DNA of 31,533 nucleotides from a virus. The stretch covers positions 1 to 31,533 of IMG/VR virus record IMGVR_UViG_3300031675_000011; one strand, given 5' to 3'. The notes beneath the pieces are model-generated. The model was not told the DNA's origin. It made no database searches and worked only from the letters and a program-made list of their open reading frames with translations. Positions 1,263-31,533 of this stretch are shown in pieces. A program made the translations under genes and the position numbers. How positions within the stretch are numbered: position 1 is the first letter of the stretch; the number at the start of each line of letters is the position of its first letter.

Positions 1263-1263
1263 A

Positions 1264-12133: not shown

Positions 12134-12508
12134 ATGGCTAGATTAATCGGATTTAATACAATAGGTAAAACTAAAGCACCATTTACTACAACTGGTGCCG
12201 ATACAGTACTCCGTGATTTACAAAACGAGCTATACACTAAAAAGGGTGAACGGGCAATGAGACCAAACTTTGGGTGTATTATTTGGGACTTATTAATGGA
12301 CCCAGCAGATAGTAACGTTGAAAAACTTGCCAAGGAAGATATACAAAGAATATTAAAAAAAGACCCAAGGGTCGGTGAGAAAGAAGTAAAAGTGCTTGTA
12401 TTGGATAACTCTATAAGTGCCGAAGTTATAATAGACGTGATACCGTTTGGTTCCGTTGAAACATTATACCTAACTTATACTCAACAAATAAATGAAGGTA
12501 TTAGTTAA
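12134..12508 (+). CDS. 25: Baseplate wedge subunit gp25 (GPW/gp25 family)
   Basis: 124 residues. It shows the gp25/GPW pattern: MARLIGFNTIGKTKAPF, a helix ADTVLRDLQNELYTKKGERA, the core MRPNFGCIIWDLLMDP, then ANxVEKLAKEDIQRIL-type helix and KDPRV, ending in a strand-rich tail. T4 gp25 is 132 residues. It sits in the wedge core with gp6 and gp53 and helps trigger sheath polymerisation. I chose the ATG at 12134, not the in-frame ATG at 12113, because the latter lies within the late promoter and upstream of the predicted transcription start; the family also typically begins near this point. No ribosome binding site precedes it. The TAA overlaps the gp6 ATG (TAATG). Confidence 0.93.
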   Translation: MARLIGFNTIGKTKAPFTTTGADTVLRDLQNELYTKKGERAMRPNFGCIIWDLLMDPADSNVEKLAKEDIQRILKKDPRVGEKEVKVLVLDNSISAEVIIDVIPFGSVETLYLTYTQQINEGIS

Positions 12509-15500
12509 TGGCTAAAAGTAGACAAAACAATTTATTTGCCGCAGAAGATTGGAAAATTGCTTACAAGGCATACAGTCAGGTAGATTATCAAGCATACGAC
12601 TTTGACACCATGCGTGGTGCAATGGTCGACTACGTTAAAACAAATTTCCCAGAAAACTTTAACGACTATATTGAGAGCTCAGAATTTATAGCAATTATAG
12701 AATTGCTGGCATACCTGTCGCAGTCATTAGCATTCAGAATGGACGTGAACACTAGAGAAAACTTCTTAGAGACAGCAGAACGAAAAGACTCAGTGTTTAA
12801 ACTTGCAAGAATGCTAGGTTACAATCCTAAAAGAAACATTCCTGCCAGTGGAGTAATGAAACTTACAGGTGTAAAAACAACAGAGCCTCTTACAGACAGT
12901 TTAGGCGTTAATTTAATGAATAAAACAATCCTCTGGGATGATGTAAATAACTCAGACAACTATGAACAGTTTATTACAGTACTGAACTCTGCAATGAGTA
13001 GCACTAATAGATTCTCATCTCCTATTAAAACAGGAACAGTTAACAGCATTAACACAGAGTTGTATCAACTTAATACACCTTTCAACTCTCCTATAACATA
13101 TAATAACTCTGTAAACATTAATGGGGCAACTAAACAGTTTAATATTGTTAATCCAGATTTTAAGGACAACAGTCATTTTTATGAAAGGCACCCAGATCCG
13201 ACAAACTTGTTTAATCTAATTTATAGAAATGATGGCAAAGGAACAAGCAGTAGCAACACAGGGTTCTTTGTTATGTTTAGACAAGGATCGTTGGCATTTA
13301 CAGACTACAATTTTACAACACCAGTTGAAAGTAGAACACAAGATGTGCTAATTGAAAATATTAACGAATCAGATGTGTACTTACAAGAAGTAAACACAGG
13401 CGGTCAAGTGTTGTCTAAGTGGGAGAAAATTCCTAACACAGTTGGACAAACTCTAAACTATAACAGTAAAAGTTTAGACTCAAGAAATTTATACTCTGTA
13501 GAAAACATAGGCGACAGCAACGGAATAAGATTACGTTTCCCAGACGGTGAATTTGGAAACGTGCCTACAGGAATTTACAGACTATGGTACAGAACTAGTG
13601 ATCCTTCGAGATACACTATGGATCCAGAAGAAGCAAGAGGGCTATCAATATCAGTACCTTATACAAACGAAGCAGGTAAGAAATATAACTTATCGTTAAC
13701 TTACAGTTTACAATACGCTGTAGGTAACAGTAGTCCTGCAGAAAGTTTGGCGGCCATTAAAGATAGAGCTCCTAAAACATTTTACACGCAGAATAGAATG
13801 GTTAGTGCTCAAGACTACAATGTATTTCCAGAAACACAAAGTAGTAATGTAACAAAAATTAAAGCAATAAACAGAACGCATTCAGGCCATAGTCGTTATA
13901 TTGATATAAATGACCCAACTGGTACATATCATAACATTGACACATTTGCCGATGATGCATTTGTTTATGCTAACAACAGTAACTATAAACAAGAAATTAC
14001 AGTTAATGACGCCACAACAGCTCTAGAAGTTGTTGCTAGTGTTATCCCTGCCGCATTAAAAGATAGAAAAGTTAATAACTTTGTTTATTATAAAATGAGA
14101 AACGTTTGGACAAATACTGCTACAGGCGGAGCTTATGCAAACTTTAGGTACACGGCACATGATGCTGTATTATGGAATGCATTACCGTTAACAGAAACAA
14201 GTAAGACTGGTTATATCAGTGAACAATTTACTGATGGTAATAGAAACGTATTAGTTAACACTTTAGCAAAAACATCAATGTTTAAAGAAAACACTTTCTT
14301 AAAATTTGTTAACCCATCTGATTTAGCAGGCTATAAGTGGGTAAGAATTGTTAACATAGAAAACCGTGGAGCCTTAAGTGCAGGACTAAGTACCAGCATA
14401 GGGCCAATTACATTAAGTGAAGAAGTTAACTCATCATGGGAAGTGCGTGAAGTTATTGTTTCAATGAGAAAACTATTTAGCACAGCAGAAATTGGTGGAG
14501 CTTCTGGCTTCGAAACAGCCATAAAGAACAGAGAAACATTCGGAATAGGTTATAACTTACAAACTGATACTTGGTATAAAATACCTAGCACAGAGCTTAC
14601 AACAGCAAGTAAAACAGGCAGTTATAGTTTAAATTCTGTACAAGCAGGCCCAAACAGTTGGGTTATACTAATGGAATATAGTGCTATTGATATTAATAAC
14701 TATAAGTATAAAATGACGATACGTGGAGCAGAATACGTTGTACAAAGTGAGGCAGACCTTAAGTTTTACAACGTTAAATCGGTAAAAACTTTAGGCAGTG
14801 ATAATAAAAGTAATAAAGATACAGTTATTATTACCAGCACAAATACTAAGCCAGGCACATCGGAAACATTCGAATGGAGTGGAACGCAATGGACCAATAC
14901 AGAACATGGTATTGCTATAACACCAATAGGCTTAGCAATAAACTTACCATTAAGAACTAGAGATACAAAGGCAACTGACGTTGACACCCAGTGGGTTAGT
15001 AACTTTGGTATACTTAAAACTTACGGAACAAATGTTGCTGACCAAGTTGTTAATAATAAATATGTTGACGAAGCAATAGTAACACTAAATACTTACCATC
15101 AAGTAGGTGGTATTACTTCTGAAACTAATGTAGTTATTGCAAACAATATCGGAACTATACAAAGTTTACCTAGCAAAATTGATATACCATTTAACGATAC
15201 TACATTCGGTATAAAATTTGTGGATACTACAGAATCTATCCCATACATGGTTTATAGACAAGTACCTAATGAAGGATCAGCTGGAACAGAAAAGATTTTC
15301 AAATCAAGAGCTCAAGTTGTTACTGCTAACGGAGTTGCAGGCACAGGTGCAGGAGCAACAGAAACAGTTAAGTCATGGGGAGCAGACGGCTCAGCAGTTG
15401 ACAGCACACCGGACCTCGGTAGATTGCATTTAAAATCATACGATACTGTTACAGGCGTAGGTAAACTAGAATACGCAAGAGTACAAAATGGCGATTATCA

Positions 15501-16719
15501 TTATTCCAGAGATGATACTGCTAATCCGCCTTATAGAGATAAAATTGTTGTTCATTACGAAAACAGCAGAGAGAAATTAGATAAGCCTATTGAATGGGAA
15601 GTAGTGGACAGTTTTAAAGAATCAGACGGTTATACTGATAACAGAAAAGTTATTGTTGCTCCGTTAGATACTGACAACGACTTAGTACCAGATAGACCAA
15701 TACAGTTCTTAGAATATGTTGACGCAACAGATTATGTGTTCTTTTCATATTACACAGACTTTGATGGATACAAATACGATAAGCCGTACACAGGCGTTAT
15801 TAGAGATTTTAGGCGTGAAGATACATTATTAATTAACGATGCCAGAGATACTGTATCGCCTACATCATATAGAAAAGATGTATCGTTGAGCAGTTCTCAG
15901 TGGATAGTTGTTAAAAACAAAACAGTTGCCACACAGTTTGAAGATTTAGTTAACACAAAAGGTTTAATTGTTACAACAGCAGACGATATGAAAACATATC
16001 AATTAACTCCGCTAAGTACATCATTAACGCAAGTTAAGTTAAATTTAACTACTGACTACTTTGTTAAAAACGGTAGAGGTAAAACACAGAATAGTGATGC
16101 TCCTTTTATAGCACCAGGAACAATACGATGGAACCATGTAGCACCAAGTGATGTTAGAATTGATCCAAGTATTAGTAATGTTGTTGAGATGGTAGTATTA
16201 ACTACAAGTTATTACACAGACGTTTTAGAATGGCAAGCAAGACAAATTGGTACTTTCCCGCTAGAACCTACAAGCGACGAATTATCATCTGAGTTTGCAA
16301 TTCTCGATTCTTATAAGAGTGCGAGTGATACATTAGTGTATCGTAGTGCCAAGTTTAAATTATTGTTTGGTTCTTCTGCAGATGCAGTATGCCAAGCGAA
16401 GTTTAAAGTAATTAAGTTGTCGGATCAAATTAGCGACAACGAACTAAAAGCTAAGGTTATTAATGCTATTAATATATATTTTGCTGTAACTAATTGGGAA
16501 TTTGGTGAGTCTTTTTACTTTACTGAATTAAGCTCATACATTCATCAGCAACTAGGTAGTAACATAGGTAGTATTGTTATATTACCTAAAACTAGTACAG
16601 GAAAATTTGGCGAGATGTTCCAAGTTAAAGCAGAGCCAAACGAACTATTCATAAGCACCGCTACAGTTAGCGATATAGAAATTGTAAGTAGATTAGATAA
16701 CCAAACATTAGGATCATAG
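12508..16719 (+). CDS. 6: Baseplate wedge subunit gp6, greatly enlarged
   Basis: 1403 residues against 660 in T4. The N-terminal part is typical gp6: DYQAYDFDTMRGAMVDYVKT, SSEFIAIIELLAYLSQSLAF, RMDVNTRENFLETAERKDSV and KLARMLGYNPKR (about 25-112). A J-like segment contains RLRFPDGEFGNVPTG (near 340) and APKTFYTQNRMVSAQDYNVF (near 422). The C-terminal 100 residues (ISDNELKAKVINAINIYFAV, then WEFGESFYFTELSSYIHQQLG) match the gp6 dimer-forming end. Between about 500 and 1280 lies a long strand-rich insertion with no recognised domain. Gp6 forms the inner iris of the baseplate. GAAGG sits nine bases before the ATG. It ends with tandem stops TAG-TAA in the frame shared with the next gene. Confidence 0.92.
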   Translation: MAKSRQNNLFAAEDWKIAYKAYSQVDYQAYDFDTMRGAMVDYVKTNFPENFNDYIESSEFIAIIELLAYLSQSLAFRMDVNTRENFLETAERKDSVFKLARMLGYNPKRNIPASGVMKLTGVKTTEPLTDSLGVNLMNKTILWDDVNNSDNYEQFITVLNSAMSSTNRFSSPIKTGTVNSINTELYQLNTPFNSPITYNNSVNINGATKQFNIVNPDFKDNSHFYERHPDPTNLFNLIYRNDGKGTSSSNTGFFVMFRQGSLAFTDYNFTTPVESRTQDVLIENINESDVYLQEVNTGGQVLSKWEKIPNTVGQTLNYNSKSLDSRNLYSVENIGDSNGIRLRFPDGEFGNVPTGIYRLWYRTSDPSRYTMDPEEARGLSISVPYTNEAGKKYNLSLTYSLQYAVGNSSPAESLAAIKDRAPKTFYTQNRMVSAQDYNVFPETQSSNVTKIKAINRTHSGHSRYIDINDPTGTYHNIDTFADDAFVYANNSNYKQEITVNDATTALEVVASVIPAALKDRKVNNFVYYKMRNVWTNTATGGAYANFRYTAHDAVLWNALPLTETSKTGYISEQFTDGNRNVLVNTLAKTSMFKENTFLKFVNPSDLAGYKWVRIVNIENRGALSAGLSTSIGPITLSEEVNSSWEVREVIVSMRKLFSTAEIGGASGFETAIKNRETFGIGYNLQTDTWYKIPSTELTTASKTGSYSLNSVQAGPNSWVILMEYSAIDINNYKYKMTIRGAEYVVQSEADLKFYNVKSVKTLGSDNKSNKDTVIITSTNTKPGTSETFEWSGTQWTNTEHGIAITPIGLAINLPLRTRDTKATDVDTQWVSNFGILKTYGTNVADQVVNNKYVDEAIVTLNTYHQVGGITSETNVVIANNIGTIQSLPSKIDIPFNDTTFGIKFVDTTESIPYMVYRQVPNEGSAGTEKIFKSRAQVVTANGVAGTGAGATETVKSWGADGSAVDSTPDLGRLHLKSYDTVTGVGKLEYARVQNGDYHYSRDDTANPPYRDKIVVHYENSREKLDKPIEWEVVDSFKESDGYTDNRKVIVAPLDTDNDLVPDRPIQFLEYVDATDYVFFSYYTDFDGYKYDKPYTGVIRDFRREDTLLINDARDTVSPTSYRKDVSLSSSQWIVVKNKTVATQFEDLVNTKGLIVTTADDMKTYQLTPLSTSLTQVKLNLTTDYFVKNGRGKTQNSDAPFIAPGTIRWNHVAPSDVRIDPSISNVVEMVVLTTSYYTDVLEWQARQIGTFPLEPTSDELSSEFAILDSYKSASDTLVYRSAKFKLLFGSSADAVCQAKFKVIKLSDQISDNELKAKVINAINIYFAVTNWEFGESFYFTELSSYIHQQLGSNIGSIVILPKTSTGKFGEMFQVKAEPNELFISTATVSDIEIVSRLDNQTLGS

Positions 16720-16722
16720 TAA

Positions 16723-19092
16723 ATGTCTGAAAAGAAAGTGTATCAAAAGTTGCCAGCAGTCCTCCAAACGACTGCTATTAAGAACTTTTTTGAGAGTACA
16801 GTAGAACAATTATTTAGTAAATCAAATGTTGATTCTATACAAGGCTATATTGGCTCTCCAAGCAGTGACGATGTTAATGTTGCTGGAAAGTTTCTTGCTG
16901 AGCCAACAACAGTTAAAAAGTTTTACGGACTAAGCCCAGCAGTTAATACAATTAATACAACCACAGGAAAAAGTGAAAACTTATTCTTTTACGACGAGCT
17001 TGTAGATACTCTGCAAACATACGGAGTTAATACACTTAACCATAACAAGATTTTTTCAGAAAAGTACTCATCATTTTTACCTCCAATTAACATTGATAAG
17101 TTTATAAACTATCAAGAGTACTATTGGTATCCGTACGGTCCTACTGCAATTGTAGTTACCGGTACTGTAACAAATTATATAGATGTTGATACAGATATTG
17201 TTGGCAAGAAAGAATTTACACCTACTAGCGGTAAAGCATTCCGTAACGGTATGGTTGTTACATTCTCAGGAGACTATGTAGCTCCAGCAACAAAGCACAA
17301 CATTGAATATGTTGTACAAGGCGTCGGATCAGCTATTACATTAACTAAAAAAATAGTTAACCTAAGTGCTAGGTATACGTCAACTATGTATACAAGTAAA
17401 AATATTGACTTAGTTTGGAAAATTGCTGGTACAGTTACAGATATAGTAACATACACAGCGGCACAAACAGGTGATGCAATTACAACAGACGTTAGTATTC
17501 CATTAACTTATATTGCTGGAGCAAATGCACCAGCATTGCAAAAAGAAATTAAAACAATCATCGTTGGTACATTAAACAGATACAACGGTGCAACAATATT
17601 AAGTGACGGTACAACAACTATTACATTGAATCATGCAACTACTCAACCAAGAAACATTGTTGAACTTGTTACTGAAATTAAAGCACATGCTAATTATAGT
17701 GCATTAAAATTTACAGTACAAGTGGCAGATAGGGCACCAATGGATTATATTGTGCAAGAAAGAAATGCATTAAATAATAATGTATGGAGTAGAATAAACT
17801 TTTGGTATCACAGAAATAACTTTTTAGACGCCAGTGACTCTTTGCCTAGCAGGAAGTTTAGAGCTTCTAGACCAGTCATAGAATTTGATAAAGATTTAGA
17901 ATTATACAATCACGGCACTCTTAAGTCTATTGCAGATATAGATGCAGTGGCATATAATGTTACATACAAAGAATTAGATGGTTCACCAAAAACAACATTA
18001 ATAGATGGATTAAACAAACTAAACTATAGCAGTTTAATTTTTATCAATGAAACAAAAGAAATTGCAAAATATGTATACAAGTTAACTAAAGTAGCAATGA
18101 AGCCGGTAGTAACAGCATCCATAGGTACAGGCGCAACATTTAGTGTTACGTTATCAGGCCAAGGTAGAACAAGTAGTATGAGTGCAATAACAGTTACAGC
18201 AGGCGGAACAGGTTACACTGGTAGTTCAGTTATTACAATAACAGACACATACGGTACTGGAGCAACAGCGACAGCAACAGTTAGCAGTGGAGCAGTAACA
18301 GGTGTTACTATGACAAACGGTGGTACTGGTTATTATCTAGATTCTCAATACAGGCTAGAACAACTAGGTGACCCGGACACTAATCCATCTGGCGCTATAG
18401 AAGGGTCTGCAATATTTAAGCCGTTAATAGCATCAACAAATCAAACAGTTTCTGTTGTAGGTGGCGAAACATACTTAGGCAAAGAATTTAAATGGACAGG
18501 GTTGCAATGGCAATTATGTCAAGAAAAAATAGTAAACAACCAAGCACCGTTATTCAATTTATATAGCAGTGATGGAAATGCACTAGATGATATTGCGGTA
18601 TATCCTACTTCAACATTTAACGGTAGCAAAATATTTGGCTATGCTGAAGATGTGCCAATTACTGATTCAACAAACATCAGTAAAAGTACAACAGTTGATC
18701 CACAATTAGGAACATATTTAGTGTACAAACAATACAATGCACAAAGCGAAATACTTTTTGAAAACTTTATTGAAACTGAAAGTTTTAGTTATACGCCATA
18801 CGGTACTAATACTTCAACAGGCGTAACACTAGGCGCATCAAATACAGGCGGTCCATATTCTATAAATGGTTACTATCCTTTATACTCAAAAGAAGCACTA
18901 GCACAGGCGGCTGGCGACAGCACAACGCATGAACATGTATTCTTCGGAAAGACATTTTACATGCCAAACGGACTGGTTTTAGGCACAACATACTTCCATG
19001 GAAACTACAATGGAACACTAACTTCATCTGAAAATACCACGAATTCTACAACGATAAATACTAGTACAAGTACAACAGGAGGCTCGTACTAA
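16723..19092 (+). CDS. Virion structural protein, N-terminal partner of the giant protein (789 aa)
   Basis: 789 residues. The N-terminus (about 8-140) reads KLPAVLQTTAIKNFFESTVE, QLFSKSNVDSIQGYIG, FLAEPTTVKKFYGL, then FSEKYSSFLPPINIDKFINY and QEYYWYPYGP, a pattern I associate with the very large tail-associated virion proteins of marine T4-like phages. Residues about 489-537 hold two GxGY beta-repeats, and residues 710-767 an MPNG module (GPYSINGYYPLY to YMPNGLVLGTTYFHGNYNG) that recurs at the start of the next protein. A Ser/Thr-rich tail ends it. AGGA lies nine bases before the ATG. It shares its frame with gp6, separated only by TAG-TAA, and its stop overlaps the next ATG. It has no enzyme motif. 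Confidence 0.85.
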   Translation: MSEKKVYQKLPAVLQTTAIKNFFESTVEQLFSKSNVDSIQGYIGSPSSDDVNVAGKFLAEPTTVKKFYGLSPAVNTINTTTGKSENLFFYDELVDTLQTYGVNTLNHNKIFSEKYSSFLPPINIDKFINYQEYYWYPYGPTAIVVTGTVTNYIDVDTDIVGKKEFTPTSGKAFRNGMVVTFSGDYVAPATKHNIEYVVQGVGSAITLTKKIVNLSARYTSTMYTSKNIDLVWKIAGTVTDIVTYTAAQTGDAITTDVSIPLTYIAGANAPALQKEIKTIIVGTLNRYNGATILSDGTTTITLNHATTQPRNIVELVTEIKAHANYSALKFTVQVADRAPMDYIVQERNALNNNVWSRINFWYHRNNFLDASDSLPSRKFRASRPVIEFDKDLELYNHGTLKSIADIDAVAYNVTYKELDGSPKTTLIDGLNKLNYSSLIFINETKEIAKYVYKLTKVAMKPVVTASIGTGATFSVTLSGQGRTSSMSAITVTAGGTGYTGSSVITITDTYGTGATATATVSSGAVTGVTMTNGGTGYYLDSQYRLEQLGDPDTNPSGAIEGSAIFKPLIASTNQTVSVVGGETYLGKEFKWTGLQWQLCQEKIVNNQAPLFNLYSSDGNALDDIAVYPTSTFNGSKIFGYAEDVPITDSTNISKSTTVDPQLGTYLVYKQYNAQSEILFENFIETESFSYTPYGTNTSTGVTLGASNTGGPYSINGYYPLYSKEALAQAAGDSTTHEHVFFGKTFYMPNGLVLGTTYFHGNYNGTLTSSENTTNSTTINTSTSTTGGSY
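18187..18333 (+). repeat. GxGY beta-repeat pair in the 789-aa protein
   Basis: Two units of the type ITVTAGGTGY and VTMTNGGTGY separated by a strand-rich, Thr/Ala-rich spacer (ATATATV). The same unit recurs in the giant protein at 22032-22226, 24315-24380 and 26286-26747. Confidence 0.75.
18850..19023 (+). repeat. MPNG module, copy 1 (C-terminus of the 789-aa protein)
   Basis: Residues 710-767: GPYSINGYYPLY, then HEHVFFGKTFYMPNGLVLGT and TYFHGNYNGTLT. Aligns over its full length with copy 2 at 19131-19310. Bases 18961-18989 are identical to 19248-19276 (29 of 29). Confidence 0.9.
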
Positions 19093-22000
19093 TGGCAACT
19101 GTAAATTTCGTTGGGGCAGGTAACACAGCAGGACCGTTTGCAATCGACGGACATTACCCGTTATATGCCACAGAAGCTAAATCAAATACACATGATGGAG
19201 GTAACGGTACCTCACATCTGCATGTGTTCTTTGGCCAAAACTTTTATATGCCAAACGGACTGGTTTTAGGCACAACTTACTACCACGGTACATACGACGG
19301 TTCACTAACAGCAGAATATAATCAATCTGCAACAACAACTAGTGCATCAAGTATCAAGGGATATTATTATTACAAACTAGATAAAGACGCTCCTGAATAT
19401 CACAACGCATGGAAAACTGTTGATAATCCTACGCAACAAAGAATTATTACAACATACGATTATACTCAAGTTAATGTTGATCTTGTAACAGACGAATTTT
19501 GGATAGGTTGCTACCCAAATACAATGACATCAACAGTTAGCGGATACGACATTATTATAAAAGTAAATGCAGTAGCAGTTACTGATTTCACATACGGTGA
19601 AGTAAACAGAGAAGGTTTTATAAGATTTGCATCAACAAGAACTTTTAAAGCAGGTGACTTTATAGAAATTAGTGCGTACTCAGACAAAGGATTAGTTAGC
19701 ACAACTGGTATTAGTAAATACGAAATACCATTAAGTTGGGGACATAACACTAAGAATACTGACATAACATATATTAGTGCACCAGAGTACACAGGACAAT
19801 TTAAAGATCATATTGAAGGACAAGAAGGGTTTACAGGAAAATCATTAGGTAGTAACAACTACCAAGACGGTCCTAAAGTTGCTGGTATTGAAAACAATAT
19901 AGTGCAAACCAATCAAGACATTTTGCTTGGCGCATTTCTACTTGACGACCAGCCAGGCAACTTAGTTGATGCATTAAGATTTAATGCAAATGAATATGTT
20001 AAATTTAAAAATCGCGTAAGACATGAGATAGAAAAATATTACTCAGATAAATCTGTAACAGGTTTGTCCAATGAATATATTCTCGAGCAAGTATTAAGAA
20101 ACGTTACCAGTTTTAAGATTGGCAAAGATGTATTCAGTAAAACATATATCTTGCCTTTTGGAGACAACTATACTAAACAAGACTTTATTATTACACTAGG
20201 TACAACTGCTTACACATTAACTAAGTATTTAGACTTAGACTTAATTGAGAACAGTCTGCTAGTATACTTAAATAATAAATTATTAACTGTTGAAAAAGAT
20301 TATACTATTTCAAGTTATAACCCAATAGAAATAACATTAGTAACTACAGTAACAGCAGGCGACACACTATGTACTAAACTGTATAACGCAGAAAGAGATA
20401 GTGCTCAGTGCCCACCGACTCCAAGTACAATGGGTATACTACCTTTACACCAACCAATAATAGCAACAGATACAAGTTTTAAAACGAGCATATCAACACT
20501 AATAGGACATGACGGAAGTAGACAAAAAGCATTTGGTGATTTTAGAGACGATATTCTTTTAGAATTTGAAACTAGAATTTACAACTCTGCAAAAGCAGAA
20601 TTTAGAACAGCTAACAGTCTACCAGCGTACAACAGTATAGATATAAGATGTGGTGCATTTAGAACTAACGGATATACTCACAACGAGTTTCACGATTTAT
20701 TAAGACATTACTTCTCAGCATGGAATATTAGCAACAAACTAGATCCAGTTGTAAATGAATTTTATGATTCTACTGATGAATGGACATGGAACTATAGCTC
20801 AACAGACTTACCAGGACATTGGAGAGGATTTTACGAGTACTATTACGATACAGTAAGACCTAACACTCATCCGTGGGAAATGCTAGGCTTTACAGAAAAG
20901 CCGTTATGGTTTGATGCACAATATTATGTGTATGCTGATACCGATGTTAGTAAAAGTACCCCGTCTATTAATTATGGCTCAACTAATATAGTACTGTGGG
21001 CTGACTTAGAACAAGGTATTATTAGACAAGGACCTAGAAAAAACACAACTAGTTATACAGTTAATAATCCATACAGACGTATTGGGTTAAGTAAAGTTTT
21101 ACCTATAGATTCTAGTGCTAAACTTATAAGCCCTTACAGAATTAAAACAACAGATAGTTCGTCTATTACAGTAGACTGGGCTAACACTACAGGAACAGCA
21201 GACAGTTTGTTTGCGTTTAGAACAGGTAGTTTTAGAGCATTAGATGGTATTAGTGTTAGTACAGATAATAACAAATTGTATGTTGAAAGTAATAACTTAC
21301 CTACTACAACTAGTAAAACTACAGAGCAAAAAACAACATTTGCTTTTCCTAGATTAACACAATTAAATGATTCATCATCTTGGAATGCATCTAGTCAAAC
21401 AAAAGCAGGCGCCGTTGGTGTACTAGTTAACGGTGATCCGTTAATGAGTCTAGACAGTGGCAAGTGGTGGGACAACAATAAGACGTACGACACAGCAACA
21501 TGGATTTATAACAAAGGACAAGAGAGTGGCTTAGGCAATTCTACTATTACAACGGCTGGTGTAAAAACACATTACACTATAACACCAGAAGTAATTGGCT
21601 TAACAGCATGGGCAACAGACTCTGCTTCACCTATTGTGGGTTGGGCATTTGATGGTTTACCAATTTACGGACCATATGGTTATAGTGATGCATCAGACAA
21701 TACAAGTAGTATTGTTAGAATAAAAAGCGGTTGGGAATTAGATACAAGAGCAAGGGGAACTGGCAACGCAGACGAAACAACTGGACCAGGCGGAAAGCCA
21801 ACTGGACAATATATAAAAGACTTTAAAATAAGTGCAAGTGCCGGTTCTAGTGGATATACAACTAGCTACAACATGAGATTAGCTGTAACACCGGATAGTG
21901 CAACACCAATTTATCACTATGTAGCAACCATCAATGCTGACGGCACACCTGCTTTCCCTTATCATGTAGGTGGCGGTATTATTAGTACAGATAGATGGAA

Positions 22001-25000
22001 AGGAGAGTACAGAAGTGTTTCAGAACAAGTAGGTGCTGTAACTTCAATAAATGTTACAGATAAAGGTGGATTATATACTTCTGCACCAAGTGTAGTAATA
22101 ACAGGAGACGGTAACAACGCGGCGGCTACAGCAGTAATTACAAATAAAAAATTAACAAGTGTGACCGTAACAACTCCTGGTTCTGGTTATACTTATGCAA
22201 CAGCAACAATAACAGGTGGCGGCGGTGTTAGAGCTAAAGTAACAGTATCTGTTTCTGGTAAAGACAACAGCACATTTTCTGGCAAAACTAATTCATCAGC
22301 AACAGCGGCATTAACAAGTACTAAATCTACTACATTAGCAAAAGGCACAGGCTTAGACGGTGTATGGAAATTTGGTGATGGCGCACCAGTAGAAAATGCA
22401 TTTAAGTACAGTTCAACATATCCGTTTGCCTTAGCAGAAGCATTACTATTAGCTAAGCCAGGTCGTTTTGCAACTGTATTCTCAGACCCTACAACGTTGT
22501 CAAGACCAGCAGTTAACAATACACAGTTCTTAAGTAAAAATACTAATAAACGTTGGAAGTTCTTAAACACAACAGATTTTAAAATTCACGGTGATGTAAA
22601 TAAAACTACTGGTAAAATGCACACTAACATTGGTTACACGCAGTTTATTAATAGTTGGTTAAAGTTCCAAGGGTTAGATACTACACTAAACTTTGCTACA
22701 CCGTTGCGTTCACTTAATGTTAAACTTGCACATAGAATGAGTGGCTTTATTGACAAAGACACACTTTCTGCAAGAACAGACCAATATAGTAATTCCGGTA
22801 ATGCTACAAGTTTAATTATTCCTAAAGAAAATATTACAACAACATTGCATAGTAGTAACTACAAGTCAAGAAACTTCTACTCAGGTGTTGTTGTTGAACA
22901 AACTTCAACTGGATATAGAGTTAGAGGATTTGATAAGAACAGAGGATACTTTGAAGTAATAGAAGGTATTAAAACAGGAAAATCTCTGAGAATAGAAGTT
23001 GGCGGAGATCCTGAAACATTTTCTGTATGGAAACAAGGTGTAACTTACAGCACTGGCAATATTGTACAATATAGAAATAATTTTTATCAAGCACCGTTAA
23101 GTATAACATCAGGTACAATATTTGATACTAAGTTATGGCAAAGGCTTGCTAAACTACCTCAGATTGATTCTGCAACAGCAGTACAGTATTTAGATTCAAC
23201 TGAAGTAATAAAACGTATTCCATATGAAACTGAGTACACAACAGTACAAGAAGTTGTTGATCTAATGATTAACTTAGGTAGATTCCAAGCCAGTCAAGGT
23301 TTTGATTTTAGCCAGTTTGACAGCGACATTGCCGCTGTTAAAGATTGGGCCTATAGTGCAAAACAATTTTTGTTCTGGACAACTGGCGTATGGCAAATAG
23401 GTAACACTATTGAACTATCTCCACTAGCCGGCAATGTTAAGTTTATTGCTCCTAGAGGATTCATTGCAAAAATTAATAGAACAGACAGAGAGCAGTTTGC
23501 AATACTAGATCAAATAGGCGAAGGAATAGATCCTACGCATTGTACTATTCTTAGAGAAAATGATTACATAGAAGTAAGTCCACCAACTGGAAGCCAAATT
23601 TATAGTTTAATGTTGTTTACTAAAGAGATTGAACATGCATTGGTATTTGATAACGAAACAAACTTTAGTGATGTTATTTTTAATGACACGTTTAATCAAC
23701 GACACAAACGTATTAAACTTAAAGGACAACGAACAGCAAACTGGGAAGGCAAATTCTTAAGTCAAGGATTTATTATTGATGGTGAAGAATTATTACCTAA
23801 CTTAGATAACATGGCAGAGAGCCTAGGACGTTATCACGAGTTTGGATTTATTCCAGTAGAGAAGCAAGTATACCAAGCAAGTAGATCATTATTTGGTTAC
23901 ACTGAACGGGACTACTTAACTGAACTTGATATTCAAGATGATGAGCAGTTTGATTTCTACAGAGGCATGATACAAGGCAAAGGTACTAAAGAAAGTTTAG
24001 GAAGAATTGCTAGAAGTAGTGCAGTAGTATCAGGTAACGTTAGCATATTTGATGAATGGGCTCTTAGAGTGGGCGACTTCGGCGACACTGAAAATGATCA
24101 AAGCATTGAGCTAAAACTTGTTAAAACAGAAATAACTCAAGACCCGCAATTAATTACTTTAGACTTTCCAGAAAATGTTACTAACATTGTTGAAAGAGTC
24201 GATGTTGTAGATGCCACTTATGCATATAACATTGTGCCTAGTATTGAAATCTCCGGACCAGGAATAGGTGGAGTACAAGCAACAGCTACAGCAACACTAG
24301 ATACAGCAACAAGTAAACTACAAAAAATAACTGTTACAAACTCAGGAAGTGGTTACGGGGCAATACCTACTGCAAAAGTACTAGCAAGTAATATAGTACT
24401 TAGTTCAGGTAGTTCAACAATTAATAAAACTATTGCACCTATAAGCAACTACTTTGACTTTACACAAACAACTGCATCAATTACTATTGCTGATGCGTTA
24501 AGTTCAAATACCGCACAAGTAATTACAGTAACAAATGGTGGAAGTGCTATTACTACAGCAAATGTACTAACAGCGATTAATGATAACTTAGCCATTAATG
24601 CTAATGTAAAAGTTAGTTTAGTACCATCAGAAGTTATTAGTGGAAGTTCAACAGTAACAAAATATACTGCAATATTTGCCGGTAAAGATTTTTACTTAGA
24701 CAATGCAGACAACTTTGGTACTGATAATTCTAATGCCAATGTACATTACCAACCTATACAAAGATATGCAGTATCAAGTGCAATGGCTGGTTCAACTACG
24801 CAAACAACAATTAACGATGTAGCCGTAACAATAGACGGTACAGCGGTTGCTTCTTCATATTTTACATATGATTCAGGTAGCATTAGTTCTGTAACAACAA
24901 CAGCAACGTATCCAAGTTTAGATACTACTGCCACTAGAGCAGATGGTGTTATTGTATACCCAGAACAAAACAACAGTTTTACAATTACATTAAGCACGGC

Positions 25001-28000
25001 GATTGATACAAACAATCTAGAAGTTGGCGAAGACGGTAACTATAAGTTTGTTGATTTATATATCGGCAATGTGTTAATAAGTAACAATCACAACTCATTA
25101 GCATTCGGTGATCACGACAATAATTCTAGTACTGCTGATCAGCAGTACACAACAGTAAACGGAACAATGTTTACTATTGCCGCAAATGGTGCCAGTGTTA
25201 CATTCCCAGATGTTAAGAGACTTCCGGAGAGTGTTAAGTCAACTATCATGAATCCACCTACTACAGCAGATGCTGATGGTAAGCAACAGCAAATAGTTAA
25301 AGTTATTGCAAGTGGAACTGTAATTAAGGTTATAGAAGATCCAACAGTAACACTAGCTACATCATTGAAAACTGATATACCTGGTGCTGTATTAAACATT
25401 AAAGTAACAGCACAAGACGGTATTGCTGTTAGAATGGGAACTAAAAGAAACTACGCAGTTACAGCCGACGATAAAAACGATGACACAATATTAATTGATA
25501 TTGATGACTCAACAAGGTTTATTAAAAAGCCTACAGGTGTTAAAGAAAACAACTTGTGGCCAACAACTAAATTAGTTAATGCATCTGGTTTAACAGATCC
25601 TAAGTATGCTACCATTAAAAATGCTGGTTATGTGAACAAGGGTAATGTTACCTTCCAGTCATTTGATATCGCTAGTCTGCCAGAGCTATACAGCAGTGAT
25701 TTAATATTTAAGCCTACAACAAACGACTTAGTACATATTGCATACAGTGAAGATAACGACTGGAATGTTTATAAACTAACGCCAACAGACGCATCAGTTC
25801 ACTACCTAAAAAGAAATGCAGGCGGGAAAGTATCATTACTAACTAATGACAGTTTATTTAACTACTTAGATACCAATGAAATTGGTACAACAGATTCTGG
25901 CAAGTATTTAGATTACTACTTGTCTCTAGACAATGCAAACATAAACAATCAAGTGGTTGTGTGGACTAACGAAAATGTAGTACAAGAAAAACAATCTCAG
26001 ATTACAGACTTTAGTGCTCCGCAAATGATTCAGGCTCGTATTGAAAGTATTGGGCCTCAAGTAAGCAAAACAATTACAGCAGTTAATCCTCACTTAGGTA
26101 AAATTATTAATGGTGTTACGTTAACCCCTATAAACAAGAGTGATAAAGTTGTAGCAACTGGTGACATAACAAGCATAAGCAATTTAGACGCATTTCAGTT
26201 AGTAGACAATGTTGGTATAGAAACTCAGAATCCTGCGACACTTACTGCTGGTGGAACAAATCAAGTTGTTGTAGATCCAATTAGGGTCGAGAGTATCACA
26301 GTTAGCAGTGGAGGTTCTGGTTATGCTAGTGCTCCAACAGTTACACTTACAGCTAGTCCTACAAGCGATACTGCATCAGCACTAGCAACAATTATTGGTC
26401 CTATAAGCACAGCAGTTACAATAGGTAACGGTGGTTTAGGATATGCGGCACCAATATTAATAATTAGCGACCCAGAAAATACTGACCCAGATTCAAGTAG
26501 TCCAACATTCGGATTGGCAAATGTTGCAACAGCAACAGCTACAATTAATTCTGATGGAACTATTACAGCAGTAACAGTAACAAATGCAGGTGCAGGATAT
26601 ACAACAGCACCAACAATTACTGTACAAGGTGATGCAACTGTAACAGCGTTACTAACATCAACACTAAATGCATTAGTTGACAGTATTGTTATGTACAACA
26701 GAGGTAGTGGTTATAGTGCTACATCAGTTGCAGTAACAGTTAGTGGCAATGCAACAGCAACAGCAACTAAAACAACACCAGCTACATCACCAATAGCAAA
26801 ACTATATGCCGCGGCTAGCAATAATGCAACTAAAGTTGGTATTCGATTCTTAAGCGACATGAAAGATAGTTTAGCATTTAAAATAACTACCCCGAGAACC
26901 GTAAGTGAACAAGCAACATATGATGCTATAAAAGTTATACAAAATCGTAGATTTAAATTAATATCGTACAACACAACTACAGGAACTTTTATTTTACAGC
27001 ATCCTGCTTTTGGTGTAGCAAACGTAATCACAAACTTAAAAAACATAGGTTACGAAGCAAAAGTAGTAACAACGTTTACCCCTAATGGTGCAACTCACTT
27101 CACAGTAACAGACACTGGTTATAGAAGATTTGAGTTTGAAGACATTACATCAGGCTCAACAATTGGGTATTCTCAAAATGTTACTATTAGGCATTTAAAT
27201 AAATCTAAACTAACAATTGCAAATCACTGTCTTACAGTCGGTGATACTATTAGAGTATTTACAAATACATTTAGTGGTGCATACAATATTGATACTGTTA
27301 TAGACACAGACAATGTTATAATCAAAGCACCATATATACCTGGGTTCTCATCAGGTTCAATTTACGGTGATGGCATACAAATTAAAACAGTGGCTCCTCA
27401 CGGAATCTCTCCAATATATGCGTCATCAAACAAATCTATAGCAGTACATTTTGCTGACCCTAAAGCATATAACAAAACTTATATTATAGATTCATTAACG
27501 CCTAACACTATTAACATAGGCGGAAGATGGGCACCTATAACAGGAACAGCAACATACTACGAACATAAAATAGCAACGTTAACAGGTGCAACAGCATACG
27601 ACGGTACTAATAGTGCTACAGCAACAAACGTTGTAGACGTTACAAATGATCCAAAACTAAATGAGATAATTGTAACATATAGTGCTAACAGCAATATTGT
27701 TCCACCACAGTTTGTTAGATCAGAAGGCGCAAAAATAAAAATTCATACAGACGCCTTGCCAGCAGTAACACCAGCTAACACTTATCCACCGGTTGGAATA
27801 TCAGTTGCAAGACAACGTGGTAGAGACTCGGACAGATACCCTCTGGTTACAACACTTGGATTTGACGAAGTAAATGTTAACGGTAGCACCTTTAAAATTG
27901 ACAACATTAATAGTGCTAAAGCAGTTGAAAGTTCTATTAACAGAGCAATTGGTTTAAGAAGAGAACATGTAAGACAAAAAGATAGAGGTTCAGAAGTTGG

Positions 28001-31000
28001 ATTTGTTATAATGAATAATCCAGACACAACGGTGTTTAACGGATTATCTTCTAAGTACATTAGTAACTACGGAGCATACATTAATGATCCATCTTTAGTT
28101 AACGAAATAAGTGGCGGAGCATTAGTATCTGAAAAGAGTATTTCGTATGCAAGTGCAGGCGAAAATGTTATTGATAACGAGTTTAATCCAGGACCACTTA
28201 ATAGTGGGCCAATTCATGGATTAGCATATACTGATCCAGATACATTAATATACTATATTTGGAATGCACCATTAGGAAAATATAGAGCATATTCCTCAAC
28301 ACAAGAAACTACTACCCCGAGTGCGAATAGTAATAAATCAGCTGTGCCGTCTAACCACCAAGCACAGACAGTAGCACAATATACAACGTGGGAAGCGTCT
28401 GTAGGATTTACAGTTAGCTCAGATCCATTAGAAAATATAGCATACTGGTCTGGCGCTATTGTTAGTCACAACTCTAAGAGTTATAAAGCAAGTGCCGACA
28501 TTACTATGTCAAACAACACAGTATTCGAAGTGGCACGTTGGGCCGAGCTAGTTGGCAATACAAGTTCTACTACATTAAGCGGATACTTTGCAGATGCTAC
28601 AGCAGAAAATAACGCAAATTTATTACTAAATGTAATACCAACTAACAACTCAGTATCAGCTACAGCGCCAGGTACAAAACGTATTAGCTATAACATGTTA
28701 TCTACAGTTACTAAAACACTTGCTAATTCAAGTACTGTTACTATACCGACATTTAGATTAGCTGTTAGTGAACTAAACTTATTTGAAGTTTACGAAGCTG
28801 TACAAAACGATGGTGCAGGTTCGGCAAACGGTGACGTCTATTACATACTAGTTGATAAAATTAATCCAGAGATAGTTGACTCACCAATAGACTATTACGG
28901 AACTGTTAATTTATGGAGCAGTTTTGGTAACTACAAACGAACTGAATATTATTACATAAACGGCATTACACCAACTGTGGATGCTAGTAACAGAATTACT
29001 AATAGACTAGATCCTATGAGAGTAGAATCAACTGTTAGTGTAGTTAATTTACCTCCAGTTGAGCCAGCCGCATTTATTGGTTTACAAACTATAGAAGAAC
29101 CATTTGCAGTTACAGGCGGCAACAATTCAGATCCTGTAGCAAATATTAATGCTATTTCAGGATTAAAAATTACAGGCAATACTGTTACAGTTAGTGACAC
29201 AGGTCATAACAAATTCTTTATGTGGACACCAGGGCTTAAACCAAATATGTGGAAGCCATCAGATGGACCTGAAGGACCAGGGTACTTACCTGGTGTTAAT
29301 GGTGGAGACACAGTATTCGGTTATGGTAGAGGTTACTATACTCTAAATGATACACATTTACCAACTGATTATCCAGATGTAGCAAGTTATGTCGAGACAG
29401 ACAAAACACCATACAGCGGATTAATGCCTAGATTTATGTACAGTAAGAAATTTACTGTGAGTCCAGAAGCAGTTGCTTATAAAATTGAAATATTTACAGA
29501 CACCGACGGTAACATAATATCTGAAGAAGAAGCAGAGATATTAGGTAGGGTGCCAGGAACTATAACATTACCAGAATATGTAACTTCAACTAATGAAGAT
29601 ATAGGTATTACAGGTATACGCCCTGAAGAATTATTTGTTGCTTGTTTCTGGACCGAAGAACATGTATATACAAACCAGCTCACAAGTTGGAATTATAGCA
29701 TACTTAATGCCGCAGGTCAACCGACCCCTGTATTATCTAATTACACAGGTACAGTAACTAGGGTAAAATATATTAGACTTACTGAACTTCCTGGCAATGC
29801 ACATACTAGCAGACTAATACCAGATACAGGTTGGGCAGGCAGAGGATGGAATAACACTATTGCTGATAGGTTGCCAACAGATTATAATGAAGATAGTATT
29901 TTAGATTTATTTAGACCTACTACTGTAGCAGGCGGAAGTACAGACAGTGATGACGAAGGTGTAACTGTTGAATTAGGTATAGGTGACCAAATTGCTGATG
30001 GTGAAGTTAACGTAGGAAAAACAGGACAGTTAGCACCTGGTACAACTAATGCCCATACAATTCCCACTACACCACTAGGGCCAATGTTAAACGGTGAGTT
30101 CTTAGCTGGCTTACCAGGACCTTGTGCAACACTACCAGAACTTACATCACCTGCTAATGATTCAAGTTCTTGTGCGGCTGAACTAGGTCAGCTAGAGTAT
30201 GCAATTATTGATAACACTAATGCTCAACGCAGAGGTGAAGACATAGTATTAACTAAAGAAGAAGCGGCAGACGTTGGTATTGACCAAACCGGTAGTGTAA
30301 CATATACAGACAATGAGTCGTTTGACTTTTCTGCAGGTACTTCTGCAGGTACATACGCAGACAAATTTGACACCAGTAACTGGCAATATGTAAATGTAAA
30401 TATTTCAGGAAACAATTCTATTAGAGTGTTCTTTGACTTCTTAGAAAGTTCCACACAATTAGAACACGGAAGTGTAGTAATGGTGCAAAACACCGAACCA
30501 TACTTTTATGCTACAGAAGGCAAAGCTGGATTAGTCGATGACTCTGTAATTAATCCTTTCACTGGTGCTGAGACTGGTGTATCTAACGGTGGCTGGGTAA
30601 AGAATCCTAATGGTGCTAATAAGCGACCAACAAAAGAGCTGAATTGGTGGATGAACGCAAGAGTACTAGCAAGTACTCAAGTATCTGGAGACGCTAGAGG
30701 AACAAAAGGCGATCAAGTATCACAATACGGTGTAGACTTTATTGGCAACACAAACTTAAAGCGTAATGATATTGTAGACTCTAATTTAATAAGCCAACGC
30801 CAAAGCAGAGAAGATTGGGCTTTTGATGCTAGTTCAAATCCGGGACCAGTTGCATCAGAAAGCGATCAACGAGTATCGGCAAACCATATAAACACAACCA
30901 CAGGAATGTTACAGTTTAGTGGCGATACAGACTTAGATAGTACTAAAAAGTCTGATCACGCCGACAATAGAGCAAAGTGGTTACAACATGATATTGGTGT

Positions 31001-31533
31001 ATCAGGTATTGGTTTTATAAGTTCAGCTGTGAAATGTAGTTTAGGCGAATATGTTACTATATTTATTAGACCAGATTCTACTGTTACTAGAGCAGATACA
31101 CAAACAACAGCAGTTTTATGGCAAGCAATTATTGAGTTTACTGGTGCTGTAGTTGACAGCGACCTTATAAATCCGCCAACAGCCGCATGTGTTGAAGGAC
31201 ACAGTACTGCATATACTCAAGGTGCTGTTAAAAGTACATGGCAAGGCACTAACAGTTGGGGTTACTTTGGGCAACATAAGTCCGACAACGAACGATTTGA
31301 TCGTAATAAAACTGGACAGTATCAAAAAAAGACCCACTTAGATAACATATACTATCCTTATATGCGTTTACCTAATCCATATGATTCTAGTTTATATAAC
31401 AGCATGCCAGACGCAAAGTGGGGAGAATGGCATCATTGTCACAATACTGATAAAGTTGCAACAGGGCCAGGTGTTAGAGAATTAGCTAAAAGAACTATTA
31501 GCACAATACAGCGAACAACATTAGCAAAGTACA
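19092..31533 (+). CDS. Giant modular virion (tail/fibre-type) protein, open to the window end (partial)
   Basis: The frame opens at ATG 19092 and I find no in-frame stop to 31533: at least 4147 codons, end not seen. AGGAGG (19077-19082) lies nine bases before the ATG, which overlaps the previous stop (TAATG). Visible parts, by residue: MPNG module (14-73); a mixed region with QTNQDILLGAFLLDDQPGNL (about 275-295); YHYH-type domain (831-962); GxGY beta-repeats (981-1045, 1742-1763, 2399-2552); two short aromatic modules like carbohydrate-binding CBM5/12 (1313-1352, 3117-3153); and ARSSAVVSGNVSIFDEWALR (about 1640). No transmembrane or enzymatic motif was noticed. Its place after gp25-gp6 and under the same late promoter implies a tail or baseplate-attached structural role; host binding is inferred from the modules. 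Confidence 0.92.
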   Translation, partial: MATVNFVGAGNTAGPFAIDGHYPLYATEAKSNTHDGGNGTSHLHVFFGQNFYMPNGLVLGTTYYHGTYDGSLTAEYNQSATTTSASSIKGYYYYKLDKDAPEYHNAWKTVDNPTQQRIITTYDYTQVNVDLVTDEFWIGCYPNTMTSTVSGYDIIIKVNAVAVTDFTYGEVNREGFIRFASTRTFKAGDFIEISAYSDKGLVSTTGISKYEIPLSWGHNTKNTDITYISAPEYTGQFKDHIEGQEGFTGKSLGSNNYQDGPKVAGIENNIVQTNQDILLGAFLLDDQPGNLVDALRFNANEYVKFKNRVRHEIEKYYSDKSVTGLSNEYILEQVLRNVTSFKIGKDVFSKTYILPFGDNYTKQDFIITLGTTAYTLTKYLDLDLIENSLLVYLNNKLLTVEKDYTISSYNPIEITLVTTVTAGDTLCTKLYNAERDSAQCPPTPSTMGILPLHQPIIATDTSFKTSISTLIGHDGSRQKAFGDFRDDILLEFETRIYNSAKAEFRTANSLPAYNSIDIRCGAFRTNGYTHNEFHDLLRHYFSAWNISNKLDPVVNEFYDSTDEWTWNYSSTDLPGHWRGFYEYYYDTVRPNTHPWEMLGFTEKPLWFDAQYYVYADTDVSKSTPSINYGSTNIVLWADLEQGIIRQGPRKNTTSYTVNNPYRRIGLSKVLPIDSSAKLISPYRIKTTDSSSITVDWANTTGTADSLFAFRTGSFRALDGISVSTDNNKLYVESNNLPTTTSKTTEQKTTFAFPRLTQLNDSSSWNASSQTKAGAVGVLVNGDPLMSLDSGKWWDNNKTYDTATWIYNKGQESGLGNSTITTAGVKTHYTITPEVIGLTAWATDSASPIVGWAFDGLPIYGPYGYSDASDNTSSIVRIKSGWELDTRARGTGNADETTGPGGKPTGQYIKDFKISASAGSSGYTTSYNMRLAVTPDSATPIYHYVATINADGTPAFPYHVGGGIISTDRWKGEYRSVSEQVGAVTSINVTDKGGLYTSAPSVVITGDGNNAAATAVITNKKLTSVTVTTPGSGYTYATATITGGGGVRAKVTVSVSGKDNSTFSGKTNSSATAALTSTKSTTLAKGTGLDGVWKFGDGAPVENAFKYSSTYPFALAEALLLAKPGRFATVFSDPTTLSRPAVNNTQFLSKNTNKRWKFLNTTDFKIHGDVNKTTGKMHTNIGYTQFINSWLKFQGLDTTLNFATPLRSLNVKLAHRMSGFIDKDTLSARTDQYSNSGNATSLIIPKENITTTLHSSNYKSRNFYSGVVVEQTSTGYRVRGFDKNRGYFEVIEGIKTGKSLRIEVGGDPETFSVWKQGVTYSTGNIVQYRNNFYQAPLSITSGTIFDTKLWQRLAKLPQIDSATAVQYLDSTEVIKRIPYETEYTTVQEVVDLMINLGRFQASQGFDFSQFDSDIAAVKDWAYSAKQFLFWTTGVWQIGNTIELSPLAGNVKFIAPRGFIAKINRTDREQFAILDQIGEGIDPTHCTILRENDYIEVSPPTGSQIYSLMLFTKEIEHALVFDNETNFSDVIFNDTFNQRHKRIKLKGQRTANWEGKFLSQGFIIDGEELLPNLDNMAESLGRYHEFGFIPVEKQVYQASRSLFGYTERDYLTELDIQDDEQFDFYRGMIQGKGTKESLGRIARSSAVVSGNVSIFDEWALRVGDFGDTENDQSIELKLVKTEITQDPQLITLDFPENVTNIVERVDVVDATYAYNIVPSIEISGPGIGGVQATATATLDTATSKLQKITVTNSGSGYGAIPTAKVLASNIVLSSGSSTINKTIAPISNYFDFTQTTASITIADALSSNTAQVITVTNGGSAITTANVLTAINDNLAINANVKVSLVPSEVISGSSTVTKYTAIFAGKDFYLDNADNFGTDNSNANVHYQPIQRYAVSSAMAGSTTQTTINDVAVTIDGTAVASSYFTYDSGSISSVTTTATYPSLDTTATRADGVIVYPEQNNSFTITLSTAIDTNNLEVGEDGNYKFVDLYIGNVLISNNHNSLAFGDHDNNSSTADQQYTTVNGTMFTIAANGASVTFPDVKRLPESVKSTIMNPPTTADADGKQQQIVKVIASGTVIKVIEDPTVTLATSLKTDIPGAVLNIKVTAQDGIAVRMGTKRNYAVTADDKNDDTILIDIDDSTRFIKKPTGVKENNLWPTTKLVNASGLTDPKYATIKNAGYVNKGNVTFQSFDIASLPELYSSDLIFKPTTNDLVHIAYSEDNDWNVYKLTPTDASVHYLKRNAGGKVSLLTNDSLFNYLDTNEIGTTDSGKYLDYYLSLDNANINNQVVVWTNENVVQEKQSQITDFSAPQMIQARIESIGPQVSKTITAVNPHLGKIINGVTLTPINKSDKVVATGDITSISNLDAFQLVDNVGIETQNPATLTAGGTNQVVVDPIRVESITVSSGGSGYASAPTVTLTASPTSDTASALATIIGPISTAVTIGNGGLGYAAPILIISDPENTDPDSSSPTFGLANVATATATINSDGTITAVTVTNAGAGYTTAPTITVQGDATVTALLTSTLNALVDSIVMYNRGSGYSATSVAVTVSGNATATATKTTPATSPIAKLYAAASNNATKVGIRFLSDMKDSLAFKITTPRTVSEQATYDAIKVIQNRRFKLISYNTTTGTFILQHPAFGVANVITNLKNIGYEAKVVTTFTPNGATHFTVTDTGYRRFEFEDITSGSTIGYSQNVTIRHLNKSKLTIANHCLTVGDTIRVFTNTFSGAYNIDTVIDTDNVIIKAPYIPGFSSGSIYGDGIQIKTVAPHGISPIYASSNKSIAVHFADPKAYNKTYIIDSLTPNTINIGGRWAPITGTATYYEHKIATLTGATAYDGTNSATATNVVDVTNDPKLNEIIVTYSANSNIVPPQFVRSEGAKIKIHTDALPAVTPANTYPPVGISVARQRGRDSDRYPLVTTLGFDEVNVNGSTFKIDNINSAKAVESSINRAIGLRREHVRQKDRGSEVGFVIMNNPDTTVFNGLSSKYISNYGAYINDPSLVNEISGGALVSEKSISYASAGENVIDNEFNPGPLNSGPIHGLAYTDPDTLIYYIWNAPLGKYRAYSSTQETTTPSANSNKSAVPSNHQAQTVAQYTTWEASVGFTVSSDPLENIAYWSGAIVSHNSKSYKASADITMSNNTVFEVARWAELVGNTSSTTLSGYFADATAENNANLLLNVIPTNNSVSATAPGTKRISYNMLSTVTKTLANSSTVTIPTFRLAVSELNLFEVYEAVQNDGAGSANGDVYYILVDKINPEIVDSPIDYYGTVNLWSSFGNYKRTEYYYINGITPTVDASNRITNRLDPMRVESTVSVVNLPPVEPAAFIGLQTIEEPFAVTGGNNSDPVANINAISGLKITGNTVTVSDTGHNKFFMWTPGLKPNMWKPSDGPEGPGYLPGVNGGDTVFGYGRGYYTLNDTHLPTDYPDVASYVETDKTPYSGLMPRFMYSKKFTVSPEAVAYKIEIFTDTDGNIISEEEAEILGRVPGTITLPEYVTSTNEDIGITGIRPEELFVACFWTEEHVYTNQLTSWNYSILNAAGQPTPVLSNYTGTVTRVKYIRLTELPGNAHTSRLIPDTGWAGRGWNNTIADRLPTDYNEDSILDLFRPTTVAGGSTDSDDEGVTVELGIGDQIADGEVNVGKTGQLAPGTTNAHTIPTTPLGPMLNGEFLAGLPGPCATLPELTSPANDSSSCAAELGQLEYAIIDNTNAQRRGEDIVLTKEEAADVGIDQTGSVTYTDNESFDFSAGTSAGTYADKFDTSNWQYVNVNISGNNSIRVFFDFLESSTQLEHGSVVMVQNTEPYFYATEGKAGLVDDSVINPFTGAETGVSNGGWVKNPNGANKRPTKELNWWMNARVLASTQVSGDARGTKGDQVSQYGVDFIGNTNLKRNDIVDSNLISQRQSREDWAFDASSNPGPVASESDQRVSANHINTTTGMLQFSGDTDLDSTKKSDHADNRAKWLQHDIGVSGIGFISSAVKCSLGEYVTIFIRPDSTVTRADTQTTAVLWQAIIEFTGAVVDSDLINPPTAACVEGHSTAYTQGAVKSTWQGTNSWGYFGQHKSDNERFDRNKTGQYQKKTHLDNIYYPYMRLPNPYDSSLYNSMPDAKWGEWHHCHNTDKVATGPGVRELAKRTISTIQRTTLAKY
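19131..19310 (+). repeat. MPNG module, copy 2 (N-terminus of the giant protein)
   Basis: Residues 14-73 of the giant frame: GPFAIDGHYPLY, then HLHVFFGQNFYMPNGLVLGT and TYYHGTYDGSLT. Copy-to-copy protein identity is high, and the central 29 bases are exact. The two copies flank the stop-start junction at 19090-19094. Confidence 0.9.
21582..21977 (+). other. YHYH-type domain in the giant protein
   Basis: Residues 831-962 contain SPIVGWAFDGLPIYGPYGY, then a Gly/Thr-rich insert, PIYHYVATINADGTPAFPYH and VGGG. The DG.PIYGP..Y motif followed by YHYH and FPYH matches the YHYH family (the motif that names it), known from environmental bacteria and from virion proteins of marine phages. Its biochemical role is not established. 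Confidence 0.7.
22032..22226 (+). repeat. GxGY beta-repeats, block 1 of the giant protein
   Basis: Two units, INVTDKGGLYTSAPSVVITG and VTVTTPGSGYTYATATITGG, directly after the YHYH domain (residues 981-1045). Confidence 0.75.
23028..23147 (+). other. CBM5/12-like aromatic module, copy 1
   Basis: Residues 1313-1352: WKQGVTYSTGNIVQYRNNFY, then QAPLSITSGTIFDTKLWQRL. The W..G..Y..G..V.Y....Y.A.......W spacing is that of small chitin/cellulose-binding modules. Sugar binding is inferred from this pattern only. Confidence 0.5.
24315..24380 (+). repeat. GxGY beta-repeat, block 2 of the giant protein
   Basis: A single unit, KLQKITVTNSGSGYGAIPTA (residues 1742-1763). Confidence 0.65.
26286..26747 (+). 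repeat. GxGY beta-repeats, block 3 of the giant protein (four units)
   Basis: Units ITVSSGGSGYASAPTVTLT, VTIGNGGLGYAAPILIIS, VTVTNAGAGYTTAPTITVQG and IVMYNRGSGYSATSVAVTV within residues 2399-2552, separated by Ala/Thr-rich strands. The regular unit suggests a repetitive beta structure such as a fibre shaft or immunoglobulin-like display module. Confidence 0.75.
28440..28550 (+). other. CBM5/12-like aromatic module, copy 2
   Basis: Residues 3117-3153: AYWSGAIVSHNSKSYKASAD, then ITMSNNTVFEVARWAEL. Same YW.G..V.......Y.A......F....W..L pattern as copy 1 at 23028-23147, with little direct sequence identity. Confidence 0.45.

Follow-up and report, generated by a model that had tools for sequence, protein, structure and literature searches.

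The window, meaning the whole 31,533-nt stretch of DNA that was analysed (IMG/VR record IMGVR_UViG_3300031675_000011), is the structural region of a T4-like jumbo phage. Genes for a SegE-like GIY-YIG endonuclease, a gp46/47-like nuclease and gp53-, gp5-, gp25- and gp6-like baseplate proteins are followed by two genes termed p1 and p2. The SegE-type endonuclease gene (840–1319, minus strand) overlaps the 3′ end of the gp46-like gene, and the gene at 4052–4924 is identified as a sigma-factor gene by analogy with the gene order of CBB and PA5oct. From the gp6-like gene onwards the features are:

12508–16719, plus strand: gp6-like baseplate wedge gene, 1403 aa (phrog_10646, E = 0; phrog_219, E = 6.7e-18)
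16723–19092, plus strand, stop included: p1, 789 aa, the N-terminal portion of the ancestral giant, followed by module A and a tail
18811–19352, plus strand: inserted block of ~542 nt, absent from all fused relatives, at which the giant is split (from alignments)
18850–19008, plus strand: MPNG module A, p1 aa 710–762 (HMM score 90)
18961–18989, plus strand: 29-bp repeat, copy in module A
19009–19089, plus strand: Ser/Thr/Asn-rich tail ending GGSY, like the gp6 tail of relatives
19077–19082, plus strand: AGGAGG, Shine–Dalgarno-like, within the codons of the tail and 9 nt upstream of the p2 ATG (read from the sequence)
19090–19094, plus strand: TAATG stop–start overlap of p1 and p2
19092–31532, plus strand: p2, the giant gene, 4147 aa in the window, running off its end
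19131–19295, plus strand: MPNG module B, p2 aa 14–68 (HMM score 76)
19248–19276, plus strand: 29-bp repeat, copy in module B
21384–21938, plus strand: YHYH domain in p2, aa 765–949 (PF14240, E = 3.5e-22)

The gp6-like protein was matched to T4 gp6 by profile comparison (hhalign, E = 1.8e-4), phrog_219 being the T4 gp6 family, and a PDB sequence search returned only a weak gp6 match (E = 0.12). The giant directly follows this gene, as gene 7 follows gene 6 in T4, where the two genes overlap at their ends. No sequence similarity between the giant and T4 gp7 was found (hhalign probability 0.1%; no PDB match), and the giant was not filed as gp7; PDB sequence searches with the giant and with p1 also returned nothing. 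Of the 3324 positions of phrog_10938, p1 matches 16–227 (E = 1.9e-77) and p2 matches 1059–1698 (E = 1.2e-181). The p2 open frame spans 7196 aa in a twin contig (G001) and 7,179–7,203 aa in relatives, giving p1 and p2 together ~8,000 aa when the p2 length is taken from the twin. Open frames of unsplit relatives reach ~6,550 aa, some perhaps being cut by contig ends; the p2 frame is longer than any fused relative seen and encodes a very large phage protein.

To place the split among relatives, the giant was aligned at this point across fused sequences. In all 53 of them the gene continues across it, and the fused relatives aligned, the annotated phages CBB (3340 aa), SCTP-2 (3807 aa), PA5oct (3857 aa) and Atu_ph07 (4449 aa) included, have a single ORF, in agreement with the earlier proposal that p1 and p2 derive from one larger ancestral gene. 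The fused chain continues without a gap, typically as ...Y-x-PFG-(G/S)(T/N) running directly into ...GY-x-YYK; in L087 the join is seamless (...FIPFGGN followed at once by SSKNISGYKFYKL...) where the split clade has its insert. Among the IMG/VR relatives the split occurs only in the window, its twin, L037–L039 and L040, and all others are fused. L037–L039 and L040 represent two lineages about 75% identical, whereas the twin, from another assembly, is 99.7–99.9% identical over ~18 kb and has the same split. In this clade, then, the phrog_10938 protein is divided at the position corresponding to 19090–19094 of the window.

Other irregularities were seen in giants outside the split clade. An apparent frameshift interrupts the giant of L141 (7461–7479) and an in-frame stop that of L048 (7231–7233), either of which could be a sequencing error. 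The sister phages L142 and L143 have a 5035-aa giant (L143, 2822–17926) whose C-terminal ~170 aa are an intein-like Hint domain (CFTGNMKI...ENICVHN/MSS; PF14890, E = 8.5e-11), preceded by a GLEYA adhesin-like domain. Self-processing of the C terminus of this giant is possible.

Both modules of the insert follow the pattern GPYAINGYYPLY...HxHxFFGKTFYMPNG...HGNY, over ~49–55 aa, and have no Pfam or PDB match; they are separate from the YHYH domain. In fused marine relatives with a detectable module, there is exactly one copy, at the C terminus of the upstream gp6-like protein, usually 24–57 residues from its end (15 in L077); behind it come a Ser/Gly-rich tail with a terminal Tyr and, often, the same TAATG. 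Most unsplit marine relatives have this arrangement, whereas the gp6-like proteins of the split clade have lost the module, that of the window ending cleanly at ...RLDNQTLGS. Loci with a detectable module contain either one copy, at the gp6 C terminus, or two, in the split clade; further strong copies were not found. When eight contigs were searched over their whole records, the 5 fused ones yielded a single copy apiece and the 3 split ones two strong copies apiece, with a marginal third match (E = 0.005) in the split record G002. A detectable module is absent from L027, L041 and distant jumbo phages, T4 wedge proteins showed no sign of one, and searches of bacterial and archaeal genomes and of the annotated phage collection found no relatives of it. 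Comparison of the junction across relatives, as had been suggested, did uncover fused versions, none of which carries a module inside the giant at the split site.

The Tyr-ending Ser/Gly-rich tail (GSGY, GGSY or GYGY before the stop) is kept at gp6 ends even where there is no overlap with the next gene, and in L049–L052 and L056 a gp6 tail ending GSGYY is present without any module. Structure prediction for the isolated module gave a poor model when based on 16 sequences (pLDDT 50); an alignment of 73 rows brought the module region to ~80, with two short strands, a helix and then further strands. A Foldseek search with the complete p1 model matched no PDB structure (E above 4), and the significant matches of this model in the viral library were large structural proteins, such as the unsplit one of Atu_ph07.

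The insert is ordered as module A, the tail ending GGSY before the stop, the Shine–Dalgarno-like sequence and TAATG, and module B, and shows homology to the gp6 gene end. GGAGG is kept in L039 and L040 and at the gp6/giant junction of L087 and L096. The DNA of the p1/p2 boundary in the window (...GGAGGCTCGTACTAATGGC) and that of the gp6/giant boundary in L087 (...GGAGGCAGTAGTTACTAATGGC) are alike. Since the p1/p2 boundary resembles the gp6/giant boundary of the sister phages (GGAGGC...TAC-TAATG-GC) and the new gp6/p1 boundary does not, the arrangement is read as relocation of a gene-end cassette. A blastn search of the junction DNA against phages gave no match. The two modules and their linkers account for the whole insert, in which no endonuclease remnant was found, and this makes it improbable that a homing endonuclease or intron split the giant and later left, with the modules as hitchhikers, even though homing endonucleases of T4-like phages have split nrdA and gene 60 (PMC2988022) and a SegE-like GIY-YIG gene is present at 840–1319.

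Phylogenetic trees of the giant were constructed with the module columns left out and repeated with long branches removed. The split clade has a single origin (100 SH-aLRT), and its sister group is L087/L096, which are fused and carry the module on gp6 (support 99; 98 without long branches). In the module tree, A (99/98) and B (98/92) are each monophyletic, and therefore both duplication and split are older than the diversification of the clade; modules A and B are old paralogues. Together they group with the 53-aa gp6 modules of L066–L083 and L110 (84/84). The sister phages L087 and L096 have a 49-aa form, whereas A and B share the 53-aa form with relatives that are slightly more distant, so that the source copy may have been that of ancestral gp6 or one acquired by recombination. 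No intermediate state between fused and split was seen among the relatives.

The explanation favoured as a whole, with a probability of about 0.8, is that the giant of one clade of marine jumbo phages was split in a single ancient event, before the clade radiated, through relocation and duplication of a gene-end cassette. A cassette consisting of an MPNG module, a Ser/Gly tail ending in Tyr, a Shine–Dalgarno sequence and TAATG would have landed inside the giant, with a second module copy after the new start codon, and gp6 lost its own copy. The data show directly the insert and its position, its homology to the end of gp6, the loss from gp6 and the single origin in the tree. One possible route is that the module was first copied into the giant, after which the end of gp6 underwent unequal exchange and its copy was lost.

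The feature that originally drew attention to the junction was an exact 29-bp identity between 18961–18989 and 19248–19276 (ATGCCAAACGGACTGGTTTTAGGCACAAC), 287 bases apart, which was confirmed in the window sequence. The match stops at these bases on both flanks; no longer exact repeat exists in the window, and this one lies in a direct repeat of 121 nt with 73% identity (18902–19022 and 19189–19309). Dinucleotide shuffling gave no expected matches of the 29-bp repeat, even when 3 mismatches were allowed. Each copy begins on a codon boundary of its own gene, and a 287-base deletion between them would consequently join the p1 and p2 frames, as had been claimed. This in-register property is automatic for corresponding codons of two homologous in-frame segments, given the one-base overlap of the genes at TAATG; the spacings of A and B in relatives, 347 and 368, are likewise 2 modulo 3.

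The 29-bp run exceeds what protein conservation alone would give. The probability of nine identical codons given the same residues is ~4e-4, both copies use CTG, to which only 3.7% of the Leu codons here belong, and shuffling of codon-match columns produced a run of at least 29 in 149 of 200,000 trials. Outside the core, module A of the window is 78% identical to module A of relatives and A is 55–62% identical to B; within it, the two window copies are the same and only 66–76% like those of relatives, in which the longest exact A/B run is 11–15 nt. In viral contigs other than the window, the 29-mer occurs only in the twin, again twice and 287 bases apart. These data, including the codon statistics and the rare CTG found in both copies, favour a short patch of gene conversion between modules A and B in the window lineage, later than the split, which is probable on sequence grounds. 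The direction was probably A to B, as the core resembles A a little more than B. Coincidental or convergent identity under strong protein conservation, without any conversion, is unlikely: the residues LVLGTT are common to A and B of the window and different in A and B of every relative, in relatives only 3 of 7 and 4 of 6 synonymous sites of this core match, and the run includes a rare Leu codon in both copies, although the MPNG core is the most conserved part of the module and nine identical codons are not impossible.

The original prediction also raised the possibility of a recent split or of a built-in switch; on such a reading the 29-bp copies would recombine, reversibly in the case of a switch, and fused and split forms would coexist in the population. 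Such recombination would be allowed by an exact, in-register repeat, and gp46/47-like recombination nuclease genes lie close by. However, the split is shared by three lineages ~75% identical, across which A and B are each monophyletic, so that a recent event is not supported. Close relatives keep the split with diverged modules devoid of long identity (runs of 11–15 nt), which is largely the outcome that had been named in advance as counting against the proposal. The sole other contig with the 29-mer has both copies, and the viral contig collection yielded neither a single-copy 29-mer nor a contig fused through it. The readings as a recent split or a switch are rejected as highly improbable, and the switch hypothesis was dropped as a lead: the split is most probably fixed and not a switch. 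An assembly artefact or sequencing error, which has nothing specific in its favour and to which practically no weight is given, is refuted by the same TAATG split in five other contigs from three lineages.

The TAATG overlap and AGGAGG suggest that p1 and p2 would be made by coupled translation; reasoning of the same kind has been given for nrdA/mobE (PMC2988022). The two products probably co-assemble side by side in each baseplate wedge, in the manner of the ancestral single chain and as is known for split NrdA and split gp43 (PMC2988022). In T4, gp6 is a dimer, with 12 copies, and gp7 a monomer, with 6 copies per tail (PMC3004832). It may be speculated, at low probability, that modules A and B maintain the two copies per wedge formerly supplied by the gp6 dimer; provided that the giant is present once per wedge, there would be 12 modules per baseplate in both arrangements. 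The wedge place and copy number of the giant rest on gene order, given that it lacks sequence similarity to gp7. Similarly tentative is the proposal that the MPNG module is a dose-dependent wedge part, two per wedge, that was relocated from the C termini of a gp6 dimer to the two halves of the split giant, passing from homo- to heterodimer, with the A–B pair holding the break of the giant together. If true, the relocation of a baseplate module from homo- to heterodimer would also have split a protein of ~8,000 aa. This claim on baseplate stoichiometry from module dose is testable.

The locus is best described as an ordinary conversion tract atop an unusual, ancient gene split by module relocation. 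It represents the division, with a single origin, of one of the largest phage proteins by a small structural module that was relocated from the end of a neighbouring gene along with its translation-coupling signals, shows that gene boundaries in a baseplate operon can move as cassettes, and defines an unnamed module family absent from Pfam.

As in the T4 wedge with its gp6 and gp7 (PMC3004832), a gp25-like and a gp6-like gene are followed by a very large structural gene, although the giant exceeds T4 gp7 (1032 aa) several-fold in length. Its YHYH domain links p2 to a set of jumbo phage proteins that also have one (PMC7824862). The N-terminal part of the phrog_10938 protein of CBB, RaK2, PA5oct, Atu_ph07 and SCTP-2 matches p1 and later parts match p2; in those jumbo phages it is one ORF without an MPNG module, whereas here it is split. 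Division of one gene in one lineage is likewise known for nrdA of Aeh1, the gene for the topoisomerase large subunit (T4 gene 60) and gene 43 of T4-like phages (PMC2988022), and the split products of Aeh1 NrdA and gene 43 have been shown to reassemble into working enzymes (PMC2988022). Those splits affect enzymes and involve homing endonucleases or an untranslated spacer, whereas here a virion structural gene is divided, the insert is a structural-protein module and each product gains one copy of it.
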